A stretch of DNA of 64,000 nt from contig NC_134033.1 in NCBI RefSeq assembly GCF_964204645.1, positions 13,270,155 through 13,334,154 of the forward strand, given 5' to 3'. Position numbers and translations under genes: made by a program. This stretch comes from Tubulanus polymorphus. Its lineage: Eukaryota; Nemertea; Palaeonemertea; Tubulaniformes; Tubulanidae. The notes under the pieces are model-generated. The model did not search any database. It was not told the DNA's origin and saw only the letters and a program-made list of their open reading frames with translations. Shown piece after piece: positions 12,090 to 48,654 of the stretch (the first letter of the stretch is position 1; every line of letters starts with the position of its first letter).

Positions 12090-13136
12090 CGTGCTGAATG
12101 ATCGACGAGAAATACATCGCGTTGTTTCAGTTCCTGCGTGACGCCAAACATGTCTGTCAGTTCATTCGGTTGGCTACACGGTATCGTCTTGCTGTTACGA
12201 AAACCCGGCAGTTTGCCGAATTGTTTGTACGTTTTACACTGCGTGTAAGGATCGAGATAATATCCGGTGACTAAGTCGCACTTCTCACCGATATTACACT
12301 TGTGCAGGACAGCAACAGACGTGAGGTTCTAGATAAAAACAAAAATACGTTATTAGAAGCGATTCTACAACATTTTCTGTATCATGTTTTACATATAACC
12401 ACAGTTGAGTTTCAGTTTTAGTCATACCTGACTACCTGCTATCTGAAATTGTAGTAGTTTTCCCCAAAAAATGACAGTAATTTGACACCAAAATTTGTGG
12501 TCTAATTGAAAATGAACAAGAAATTATTCTGATGTTGGGAGTAGTTGAGCTTTTAAAAAGCGTAGAAAAACTATACTCTCAAATAGTAATCTTAGGTTAA
12601 GAAGGTCCAGAAGAATTATCGAGGATTTTTGTCAAAAATATTGTTTCGATTAATGCCTAAAACTTACCTTATGCAGTACAACTGATAATTCAAACATGTC
12701 TGCCATTGGGTACGGGCAAAACTGTTTAATGATATCCTCCATTCCGTAGAAAGCCGAGTTGTCATGGTTGTTGAAATGGTTCACTGCTCGATATAGGGGA
12801 GTCAAGTAGATAGCTTTTAATTCGATCTTCACAACGTAGCCAGATCCTGAAAAACGATACAGAAATAGGTTAAACACTCAGTGCTTAAAGAAAATACCTT
12901 CAGATCTTTGGATTTTGGACTACTGGAGGCACTAGACGCTACCAATGATCCTACTGGAGGCACTAGACGCTACCAACAATCCTGAATATCCAGAAAATAG
13001 AACATACCTCTATCGAGTACGAATGTATTATTCTTCTCCATGAAATATACCGACGACGTGCGCACGGTTTTAACTTTCGATAGATTTTCCATTAGAACAT
13101 TTTTGGAACCCTTCGGTTCTGGAAGCGCCAACACAT
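12090..13136 (-). CDS. Gene 1 exons 15-17: unique ectodomain start
   Basis: Exons 13136-13008, 12846-12668 and 12328-12090 encode about 180 residues. The motif NVLMENL...VYFMEKNNTFVLDRGSG aligns with NVFFENL...[16 protein letters not shown] in exon 12 of the plus-strand paralogue, followed in both by a Lys/Ile-rich strand-like stretch ending in TPLYRAV or IPKYEDV. The third exon has a sequon NLT and the cysteines KCNIGEKC, YTQCKTY and TIPC, matching exons 13-14 of gene 2 fused together. It ends with donor GTTAGT in phase 2. No recognised domain. The next exon was not found. Confidence 0.8.
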
Positions 13137-47600: not shown

Positions 47601-48654
47601 GTTCATAATATTTTTCAAGAATGTTCTTCACGGAAGTATATGGCCAAAAATTCTTCTTGCCATCATCAGCGGTTTAATCATTCTGTTGACAGTTGTGATT
47701 ACTGATAAATTATTGACTGTTAAAGTTATCGATAGTTATAATGGATTCGAACGGTATGCAATTGCCATGGATATAAACCAGGAGCTTACCAATAAGTATG
47801 TGCGAGAACAGGCCGAGCATTTGAATTCCGTTTCTATGGAAACTTACAAACAACAAATGCAGCATGAACTCAGGGGACTTCTGGCTGTAAAGCAAAATTT
47901 CAATCATGAACAGGTAATATTATATTCTGCATCGAGTATTTACTAATCAACTTATGAACTTAAACAGTCAAGATCATGTTCAAAAGAAAATATCCGAAAT
48001 CCTTGCCATAGAAAATACCTATATCCAACCTATGTGCTTATGTTCCTGGTACGCTTTTTCAATTTCAGGCTCAAGTATTTGCTGAGTATGTAAAAGAAGT
48101 TTGTGATTTATACACAAAACTGTTGGGTGTGTCAAAGAAAATGTGTCCGCTAGATGTTAGTCCAACATTTGTAAATATGGACATATTACCATGTAGTTTC
48201 CTGCCTATTGTCCCCAAACCATTTTCTGGTAAGTTGGCAAGATGTGCTTGACAGGAAGTTCCAAATGTGTGGATACCTTTAGTCAATTCTGTTTTCTTTC
48301 ACATTTTGTGTAGGTTTCAACAGACAATCTTATTTAGAGAAGTTACAAACCGAAACTGAGAGTTATGTGACAGCTGCACGGGACGTTGTCTTCTCCGCGT
48401 CTTACTTTACATTAGCCGTTCTGTGTATAGCTATCGTGTTTCATACGTTGGGTGCCGTTATCATGTATTATTTGAGATCACGCGAGTATCTACCCGTAAG
48501 ACTTTACTACCTCTTACCACGCGCTCCAGTTGGTTTGGACTGTTTCGGACGTCGGCTTCCTGAATATCGGCCGACTTCTCCCGTCAGAAAACCCATTGAT
48601 CGATCTGGTGACGAATTTTCAGAAAATGCAGACACTCACGAATCTCAAGTATGA
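21865..48654 (+). CDS. Gene 2: 1,928-residue EGF/TNFR-repeat protein with seven predicted membrane spans
   Basis: I see 24 exons: 21865-22110, 22792-22944, 26492-26651, 27471-27655, 27868-28078, 28495-28593, 28757-28909, 29006-29128, 29418-29492, 30513-30587, 33548-33613, 34477-34756, 34836-35010, 38152-38217, 40199-40394, 40530-40625, 40712-41311, 44237-44359, 44757-44822, 45027-45068, 45739-46888, 46968-47913, 48069-48228 and 48314-48654. The sum is 5,787 bp with every junction in phase. Spans are predicted near 145-167, 283-301, 1160-1183, 1230-1253, 1524-1544, 1671-1691 and 1847-1867. This puts residues 302-1159 outside, with two more large outside loops (1254-1523, 1692-1846). The last five spans have a prominin/tweety-like layout but no sequence match I can claim. 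Family not recognised; small extra exons could be missing. Confidence 0.88.
22386..22783 (+). repeat. Tandem duplication of ~190 bp in gene 2 intron 1
   Basis: Unit 1 (22386-22576) begins GATCCCAGAATAATTAGCAT and unit 2 (22577-22783) GATCCTAGAATAATTAGCAT. Both contain GTCCAACCATTATC and end near TTATATYTTTGA. Unit 2 runs to within 9 bp of the exon 2 acceptor, so it supplies most of its pyrimidine tract. Confidence 0.85.
23111..23407. mobile_element. hAT-like MITE in gene 2 intron 2
   Basis: TIRs CAAGGGCAGATTTAGG and CCTAGATCTGCCCTTG are inverted over 16 bp with one mismatch, and TCAAC flanks both sides. Open frames inside it on both strands are by-products. An internally related fragment lies near 44410-44680. 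Confidence 0.65.
25889..26270. repeat. Dispersed repeat, copy in gene 2 intron 2
   Basis: Begins CAGGGTCCCTACAACTCCTT and shares order and wording with 58430-58786 throughout (for example AAAGGTGCTTGAA.CTCCTT, GGCAATTAGA, TTTGTAGTTGTACAA). It is probably a hAT-type non-autonomous element. Confidence 0.7.
27471..28593 (+). CDS. Gene 2 exons 4-6: short cytoplasmic loop, second hydrophobic segment
   Basis: Exons 27471-27655, 27868-28078 and 28495-28593 follow the first span with a polar Ser/Asp/His-rich stretch (about 115 residues). A hydrophobic run [20 protein letters not shown] begins at about residue 283. It looks like a cleavable signal peptide, yet the reading frame is open for 34 codons before its Met in the same exon, and exon 4 joins in phase. 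Exon 6 gives [18 protein letters not shown], matching LDTTRWHKHNQV in gene 1. I favour a second membrane span that returns the chain outside, since EGF modules follow. Confidence 0.78.
28757..29128 (+). CDS. Gene 2 exons 7-8: EGF-like and calcium-binding EGF modules
   Basis: Exon 7 (28757-28909) encodes an EGF-like unit with [15 protein letters not shown]. Exon 8 (29006-29128) is a cbEGF beginning DKDEC, with [12 protein letters not shown] and GYFGNGYNC. Both are phase 1-1. They are the direct counterparts of gene 1 exons 10-11; the cbEGF keeps the Ca-binding D-x-D-E-C and the C-x-N-x4-Y-x-C core. They should lie outside the cell, which supports the topology with a second span before them. 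Confidence 0.9.
29418..30587 (+). CDS. Gene 2 exons 9-10: two TNFR-like cysteine repeats, 75-bp exons
   Basis: Exons 29418-29492 and 30513-30587 are each 75 bp, phase 1-1, and encode [18 protein letters not shown] and [18 protein letters not shown] with a fourth cysteine near each end (RVCE, TLCI). They align with the three 75-bp repeats of gene 1; one repeat is missing here or was added there. Intron 10 that follows is 3.0 kb and I found no third copy in it. Confidence 0.83.
30588..33547 (+). other. Gene 2 intron 10 (3.0 kb)
   Basis: Non-coding as far as I can see. I searched for a third 75-bp TNFR-like exon to match gene 1 and did not find one. A short CKTC-containing frame near 32048-32105 ends in a stop and lacks the pattern. 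Confidence 0.6.
33548..38217 (+). CDS. Gene 2 exons 11-14: WSGW exon and unique ectodomain shared with gene 1
   Basis: Exon 11 (33548-33613) encodes [16 protein letters not shown], with a W-S-G-W that fits the WxxW C-mannosylation consensus; it has no clear counterpart in gene 1. Exon 12 (34477-34756) carries NVFFENL and FTWHRESG, aligned with gene 1 exons 15-16. Exon 13 (34836-35010) has the cysteines TIRCDAK, RCPYPF and QPCQKL. Exon 14 (38152-38217) has [18 protein letters not shown] with sequon NLT. Exons 13 and 14 together equal the single exon 17 of gene 1 in length (about 240 bp). Intron 13 is 3.1 kb. Confidence 0.8.
35011..38151 (+). other. Gene 2 intron 13 (3.1 kb)
   Basis: Non-coding. 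It has a small inverted-repeat element at 37389-37473. The 67-codon frame at 37952 has a Gly/Pro/Ser-rich stretch but no splice-compatible role. Confidence 0.6.
37389..37473. repeat. Small inverted-repeat element in gene 2 intron 13
   Basis: GACCCAGTTTCACAGTGATG at the left is inverted as CGCATCTGTGCAATTGGGTC at the right, over about 85 bp. The ends resemble those of the 20551 element. Confidence 0.5.
40199..41311 (+). CDS. Gene 2 exons 15-17: cysteine-rich linker and large ectodomain exon
   Basis: Exon 15 (40199-40394) ends with a cluster [20 protein letters not shown]. Exon 16 (40530-40625) has six cysteines in 33 residues, with [12 protein letters not shown]. Exon 17 (40712-41311, 600 bp) encodes about 200 residues with mixed strand-like sequence, DEYILVGHQ, three cysteines at most and one sequon NAS. 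No known domain is recognised. No matching exons were found on the minus strand left of 12090, so gene 1 lacks this region within the window. Confidence 0.82.
41312..44236 (+). other. Gene 2 intron 17 (2.9 kb)
   Basis: Non-coding and AT-rich. I see no exon with both splice sites in phase, though a small exon here could be missed. Confidence 0.55.
44237..45068 (+). CDS. Gene 2 exons 18-20: three small ectodomain exons
   Basis: Exons 44237-44359, 44757-44822 and 45027-45068 (123, 66, 42 bp) are all phase 1-1 and code for about 77 residues, including sequons NQS, NIT and NVT and the sequences [11 protein letters not shown] and [11 protein letters not shown]. The 42-bp exon is supported by acceptor AAAACAG and donor GTATGT and by exact phase fit. 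An extra in-frame exon that ends in a stop (45187-45248) lies just downstream and could be an alternative end. Confidence 0.72.
44410..44680. mobile_element. Degraded relative of the 23111 element
   Basis: Words such as TTTTGTGCCCTTCAAAAAGTC match TTTGGTGCCCTCCAGAAAGTC of the 23111 element. The ends are decayed. It lies in gene 2 intron 18. Confidence 0.4.
45187..45248 (+). CDS. Possible alternative terminal exon of gene 2
   Basis: After acceptor TGTTTGATTTGCAG an in-phase reading from exon 20 gives [20 protein letters not shown] and then TGA. If used, the protein would end before spans 3-7, leaving the EGF/TNFR ectodomain with a short hydrophobic end. The constitutive path from exon 20 to 45739 is also in phase, so this is optional. 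Support is only an acceptor, phase and a stop. Confidence 0.25.
45739..46888 (+). CDS. Gene 2 exon 21: end of ectodomain, spans 3-4 and first large loop
   Basis: This 1,150-bp exon starts [18 protein letters not shown], has sequons NTT and NSS, then a span near 1160-1183 ([20 protein letters not shown]). A short basic cytoplasmic turn ([16 protein letters not shown]) and a second span near 1230-1253 follow. After it comes a long helical, charge-rich loop with heptad-like runs, two or three sequons (NSS, NAS, NMS) and one cysteine. The layout of span, short basic turn, span and large helical loop is like prominin and tweety proteins, but I see no diagnostic motif. The hydrophobicity and length make coding status secure. 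Confidence 0.9.
46968..48654 (+). CDS. Gene 2 exons 22-24: spans 5-7, second loop and cytoplasmic tail
   Basis: Exon 22 (46968-47913) completes the first loop (sequon NVS, one cysteine), has a span near 1524-1544 ending FRVFRTYK, an acidic cytoplasmic loop of about 125 residues ([20 protein letters not shown]), and a span near 1671-1691. The second outside loop is helical and continues through exon 23 (48069-48228) with three cysteines. Exon 24 (48314-48654) has the last span near 1847-1867 and a 60-residue basic/polar tail ending HESQV and a TGA stop. The terminal residues SQV are not a strong PDZ ligand. Confidence 0.9.

Follow-up and report, generated by a model that had tools for sequence, protein, structure and literature searches.

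A head-to-head gene pair in Tubulanus polymorphus predicted to encode anciently diverged cell-surface paralogs with seven membrane spans

Astrotactins carry two membrane spans around an inner loop, followed by EGF repeats. The two paralogs, astrotactins 1 and 2, are reported to interact, as stated in an excerpt of PMC5483515. Prominins are described in an excerpt of PMC11405016 by five spans in a 2+2+1 pattern, outer loops of over 300 residues and inner loops of under 25 residues; according to the same excerpt, prominins and tweety proteins act on membranes and induce extracellular vesicles. The locus considered here, from the nemertean Tubulanus polymorphus, contains two genes, called A (minus strand) and B (plus strand), which lie head to head with their start codons 1,688 bp apart. 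The window is the whole 64,000-nucleotide stretch analysed, C9:13270155-13334154 (contig NC_134033.1), and positions given without a contig are counted from its first letter. Judging from the sequence, it is fairly probable that A and B are anciently diverged paralogs, each encoding one large cell-surface protein with seven spans.

On alignment, A and B are paralogous from span 2 to the end. With the EGF/TNFR (tumour necrosis factor receptor) block masked, BLASTP of A against B returns three stretches: A 836-1755 with B 477-1484 (E = 7.7e-33), A 1801-1992 with B 1600-1797 (E = 1.9e-12), and A 548-655 with B 184-293, which includes the loop's end together with span 2 (E = 1.4e-5). Each segment was also scored against full and local shuffles (300 of each kind; 120 for the ectodomain). 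Span 2 with its linker, the ectodomain, outer loop 1, outer loop 2, spans 6-7 and the juxtamembrane part together with spans 4-5 all score above every shuffle of both kinds, as does the EGF/TNFR block. An earlier note on this DNA had fixed beforehand a comparison with shuffles outside the EGF repeats as the check on paralogy, and the paralogy holds, with the three masked BLASTP stretches and six segments above all shuffles. The three short matches quoted in that note (LDTTRW/LDTSSW, NVLMENL/NVFFENL and DRGSG/HRESG) stand in register in the full alignment. From span 2 onward, 334 of the 1,304 aligned residues are identical, and outside the EGF/TNFR block 278 of 1,161. In this latter part 17 cysteine columns are common to both proteins, out of 27 aligned cysteines in each, a count to be read with the alignment scoring in mind, which itself favours paired cysteines.

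The two models share one module order. A signal peptide and span 1 come first, then an inner loop and span 2; an EGF domain, a calcium-binding EGF domain and TNFR-like repeats lead on to a cysteine-rich ectodomain, about 500 residues long in both, and five spans close the protein. Exon borders and alignment bear out the head-to-head pair with common module order that had been claimed from the letters of the DNA; the 75-bp repeat exons likewise exist, three in A and two in B, which has a further one of 66 bp. The modules are as then described, and both proteins have in addition a five-span C-terminal module that the description lacked. Exons of both genes are present with AG/GT borders, as checked by splice border and phase, and neither chosen model contains an internal stop. 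The gene B model has 22 exons, from the signal-peptide exon 21865-22110 to the stop at 48654, and encodes 1,855 residues. The gene A model has 29 exons, from the start exon 20176-20030 to C9:13264672, and encodes 1,992 residues; 16 of its exons lie in the window and 13 past the left edge. Gene A had been taken to end at 12090, but a donor lies at this position, at the head of a roughly 12.5-kb intron, and the model runs on through the 13 outer exons. This rear part was traced by a genome search (genome-wide searches covered 268 Mb in 77 contigs) with the large exon 45699-46922 of gene B, which gave a weak match (E = 0.003) some 3 kb beyond the window, on the minus strand and downstream of gene A; the flank there encodes the five-span module. 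Two choices in gene A were made for phase: the candidate exon 17862-17788 was dropped, and the donor 16596 was taken over 16592.

In A as in B, eight hydrophobic segments follow one another in the same order; they are read as a signal peptide and seven spans. The best 19-residue hydropathy is 2.82 (A) and 2.73 (B) for span 1, and 2.03 (A) and 2.11 (B) for span 2. The last five spans are arranged 2+2+1 and hold two large outer loops between them; the gaps between their 19-residue cores are 31, 248, 64 and 145 residues in A and 57, 273, 131 and 147 in B. An internal duplication of this module is not supported: when spans a-b and loop 1 were compared with spans c-d and loop 2, the score was reached by 49/300 local shuffles in A and 22/300 in B. 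The inner loop between spans 1 and 2, about 445 residues long in A and about 95 in B, is placed inside because of the positive charge after span 1 (four K/R in the next 15 residues in A, five in B); with the loop inside, alternation of the spans would make the EGF block extracellular and the C terminus cytoplasmic. The loop of A contains PPSY at residue 438 and PPVPPK at 490, which are presumably WW and SH3 ligands in kind, and a motif scan of the B loop found neither kind.

After the start of span 2 there are 21 introns in A and 18 in B. Five are identical in place and phase, and these mark the ends of the EGF exon, the calcium-binding EGF exon and each of the three repeat exons. The intron that immediately precedes the EGF exon (after 14768 in A, after 28593 in B) has the same phase and lies four columns apart, and a late pair (after C9:13264926, which is window position -5228, and after 48228) falls in the same column with different phase. 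Because the remaining introns do not coincide, the copies are old. Shared phases and exon lengths, as put forward in the earlier note, are found in the EGF/TNFR block, with its five introns, and in the span-1 exon, and are not found elsewhere. The inverted duplication that it proposed fits the orientation, and a tandem copy followed by inversion fits equally. Genome searches with six pieces of A or B found no clear third copy. This is a soft negative: the 560-residue ectodomain piece of A missed B and the second large exon of B missed A, so that a copy as distant as A and B are from each other could be missed. Weak genome matches at C9:8753501 (E = 0.008) and C5:3910077 (E = 0.016) both contain stops.

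Pfam searches of A and B at E up to 10 list 12 families, led by the EGF and TNFR types, with the rest at E >= 0.31. TNFR_c6 scores 32.3 bits in partial A, 32.6 in partial B and 20.1 in full-length A, the cut-off being 29.4. A PDB profile search lists 68 sequences at E up to 10, among which EGF proteins lead (NELL2, CD97, uromodulin) and a shieldin chimera matches the polar loop (E = 0.014); the five-span module is the best stretch of none of the best 60 of these 68 matches. That the family could not be recognised from the letters agrees with both searches; in Pfam, nothing but EGF/TNFR-type families rises above noise. The family is apparently unnamed and without a Pfam model of its own, and no description of it was recognised in the titles and opening parts of abstracts of one literature collection, a weak negative.

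The rear of A and B resembles prominins and Tweety proteins, as the PMC11405016 excerpt describes them, in its five spans (2+2+1), large outer loops and inner C terminus. However, the outer loops measure 248 and 145 residues in A and 273 and 147 in B, as against over 300 in the prominin criteria of that excerpt, and the inner loops 31 and 64 (A) and 57 and 131 (B), as against under 25. A and B also differ from both groups in having no sequence match to them and in having, ahead of the five spans, a large EGF/TNFR ectodomain and two further spans. Prominin membership was rejected, PF05478 being absent from the 12 Pfam families and none of its genome matches lying on C9. In the genome, the Prominin model at E up to 10 gives 15 matches, four over cut-off, all on C2, C4 or C7; its controls gave matches in 3 of 14 genomes, none over cut-off. 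Clustered matches to this model mark probably three prominin genes elsewhere (C2:21.84 Mb, C4:0.83 Mb and C4:25.11 Mb), with a weak cluster at C7:0.74 Mb.

Astrotactin was the first idea from the layout, and the likeness consists in there being two paralogs and, if the front module belongs to the same gene, in two spans around an inner loop followed by EGF. By contrast with astrotactins, A and B have five more spans at the end and match neither MACPF nor the astrotactin hairpin. The idea was rejected on these two domains: the Pfam list for the two proteins (E up to 10) does not contain MACPF, and the ASTN hairpin (PF18577) is absent from the same list and has six genome matches, none over cut-off and none on C9 (best E 0.02). 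With adhesion G protein-coupled receptors (GPCRs) such as CD97/ADGRE5, the two proteins share EGF repeats that match in sequence and a count of seven spans; the spans, however, do not form one bundle, and no GAIN/GPS or 7tm family is in the Pfam list. In the partial proteins the 25-residue, four-cysteine repeats match TNFR_c6, the repeat model of the TNF receptor superfamily, over its cut-off, and in full-length A they fall below it; the repeats are half-size, stand behind EGF domains and belong to a multi-span protein, and the Pfam list contains no death domain.

Several points weigh against the reading of two paralogs with one seven-span protein each. The front parts of A and B, from signal peptide to span 1 and through the polar loop, have no clear similarity over shuffles: the score from signal peptide to span 1 is reached by 140/300 full shuffles, that of the span-1 exon by 26/300 full and 254/300 local shuffles, and that of the polar loop by 98/300 full shuffles. 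Because this part aligns about as shuffled sequence does, the equal 160-bp span-1 exons share length and phase only; the exon called identical in the earlier note is so in these two respects (19023-18864 and 26492-26651; phase 0 in, 1 out), and its sequence is not clearly above chance. The last span alone is also weak, its score being reached by 22/300 full and 16/300 local shuffles. Charge around the spans is clear for the drawn topology at span 1 and not at every span, the last span of A having three K/R before it and one after. AlphaFold, run in single-sequence mode on two single B exons, gave failed folds (mean pLDDT 45.0 and 29.9). Splice sites were picked by hand, and phase helped to guide the choice; the open frames are therefore in part a product of how the models were built, and the exon joins rest on splice borders, phase and the A/B alignment. 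A last exon and stop of gene A were not found, and the in-phase terminal candidate adjoining its last modelled exon overlaps a repeat with a 79.6% identical copy at about 52.1 kb of the window. Any function given to A and B is a guess by analogy. The short repeat itself lies at C9:13264454-13264654, just after the last modelled exon of gene A, and at about 52104-52197 of the window, between gene B and a glypican gene; its copies have the stated identity over 98 columns, and it hides the true last exon of gene A.

The mismatch of the fronts bears on whether each arm holds one gene or two. In a divided arm, a small type I protein would be followed by a second protein with span 2 as its own signal peptide, ahead of the EGF domains, ectodomain and five spans; either a two-gene block was duplicated, or the front genes are unrelated. 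This arrangement, for which the failure of the fronts to align speaks, is possible but not likely. The second hydrophobic segment is signal-peptide-like in both proteins, with a short core and small residues after VYA as judged by eye, and the frame past the preceding donor of A hits a stop at once. However, the phases join in both A and B across gaps between loop exon and span-2 exon of only 196 bp (A) and 212 bp (B), in which no AATAAA was found and a single ATTAAA occurs, in B. Moreover, the span-2 exon of B has an open polar lead-in before its hydrophobic part, and the weakest BLASTP stretch (A 548-655, E = 1.4e-5) takes in loop end and span 2 together. One gene per arm is favoured over the split. 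The same signal-peptide-like segment, with a hydropathy (2.03 and 2.11) below that of span 1, would also fit one transcript whose product is cut by signal peptidase behind it, which would yield two separate chains, one of type I and one with five spans and the EGF ectodomain; such a cut is quite unlikely, and the sequence can be explained without it.

Two further explanations carry far less weight. Membership of a known family (prominin, astrotactin, adhesion GPCR or meckelin) draws on a layout that is astrotactin-like in front and prominin-like at the rear and on the EGF repeats with seven spans, which recall EGF-type adhesion GPCRs, but is very improbable: all four lie outside the 12 Pfam families, and stretches of about 800 and about 250 residues part the spans, which is not how a GPCR bundle is built. 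That the exons form a collage by chance, or that the genes are decayed, for which predicted models with hand-chosen splice sites leave room, is scarcely credible given about 1,300 residues that align in the same order across two loci on opposite strands.

If the favoured models are followed, each arm would encode one protein that runs from signal peptide through span 1, inner loop and span 2 to an EGF/calcium-binding EGF/TNFR-like stalk, the ectodomain and the five-span (2+2+1) module. The cysteine-rich ectodomain might bind a partner in the matrix or on an adjacent cell, and the five-span module might place the protein in, or shape, curved membrane, as in the similarly laid-out prominins. Through PPSY and the proline-rich motifs, the loop of A could recruit WW/SH3-domain proteins that B does not. 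By analogy, A and B most likely serve in adhesion or as receptors at the cell surface, each with a membrane module that resembles that of prominins; the surface position, the EGF/TNFR stalk and the common cysteines suggest this role. They may also act together as astrotactins 1 and 2 do; the interaction reported in the PMC5483515 excerpt lends plausibility to such a partnership, no more. Co-regulation of the two genes, likewise put forward in the earlier note, is conjectural. A larger claim, that they represent a new receptor family with an astrotactin-like front and a prominin-like rear, kept as a head-to-head pair since the products are obligate partners in cell-cell contact or membrane protrusions, is doubtful. 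If the models hold, they describe a two-gene family of large surface proteins whose layout joins parts known separately from astrotactins and prominins. They would also provide two candidate proteins for a part in the cell contacts or membrane protrusions of this animal, and a way to test whether five-span membrane modules have been reused as anchors for adhesion ectodomains.

Table 1. Predicted features of genes A and B and of the interval between them (window positions unless a contig is given).
Feature	Position	Strand	Basis or remark
Gene A signal-peptide exon	20030..20176	-	In-frame ATG at 20176, hydrophobic start, donor score 2.3, phase fits next exon; prediction only
Gene A small ectodomain exon, 129 bp	19667..19795	-	AG/GT borders, open frame
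Gene A span-1 exon, 160 bp, phase 0 to 1	18864..19023	-	Splice borders, hydropathy
Gene A inner polar loop	15170..17599	-	Exons 17599-17490, 16786-16596, 16414-15601, 15387-15170; PPSY and PPVPPK motifs
Gene A span 2 and linker exon	14768..14973	-	Splice borders, shuffle test, hydropathy
Gene A EGF exon	14490-14347	-	Pfam EGF_3 over cut-off
Gene A calcium-binding EGF exon	14150-14025	-	Pfam EGF_CA over cut-off
Gene A three 75-bp TNFR-like exons	13776-13702, 13621-13547, 13314-13240	-	TNFR_c6 over cut-off in partial protein only
Gene A EGF/TNFR block as a whole	13240..14490	-	
Gene A cysteine-rich ectodomain, first part	12090..13136	-	Exons 13136-13008, 12846-12668, 12328-12090
Gene A long intron, part in window	1..12089	-	Intron of ~12.5 kb
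Gene A remaining 13 modelled exons	C9:13269790 down to 13264672	-	Include five-span module; outside window
Interval between start codons, 1,688 bp	20177..21864	.	GC 0.35-0.42 in 300-bp windows within
Gene B signal-peptide and small ectodomain exon	21865..22110	+	ATG, hydrophobic start, donor score 6.1, phase fits span-1 exon
Gene B span-1 exon, 160 bp, phase 0 to 1	26492..26651	+	Splice borders, hydropathy
Gene B inner loop, span 2, linker	27471..28593	+	Exons 27471-27655, 27868-28078, 28495-28593
Gene B EGF exon	28757-28909	+	Pfam EGF_3
Gene B calcium-binding EGF exon	29006-29128	+	Pfam EGF_CA
Gene B repeat exons	29418-29492, 30513-30587, 33548-33613 (66 bp)	+	Pfam TNFR_c6
Gene B EGF/TNFR block as a whole	28757..33613	+	Ends of its five exons match gene A borders exactly
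Gene B cysteine-rich ectodomain	34477..45068	+	Exons 34477-34756, 34836-35010, 40199-40394, 40530-40625, 40712-41311, 44237-44359, 44757-44822, 45027-45068
Gene B juxtamembrane part and five-span module	45739..48654	+	Exons 45739-46888, 46968-47913, 48069-48228, 48314-48654 (stop)

The glypican gene lies downstream of gene B on the plus strand (54422-61690), and the Pfam Glypican model matches four of the six pieces checked; the two that do not match are a probable first exon of this gene and an unrelated piece (8855-9127). Like the spliced genes for EGF domains, it marks the DNA as that of an animal. Elsewhere in the genome, C1:29229691-29250827 contains a tandem array of near-identical 208-bp units, each with one 129-bp EGF_CA-coding stretch that is exon-like and has a short intron behind it. 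A 208-bp register spanning 102 units, which were not counted singly, accommodates the listed matches, and a sample of the array (C1:29229400-29230700) holds 5.0 copies with 99% matching. It is either a gene with about a hundred near-identical EGF exons or an array expanded in assembly.

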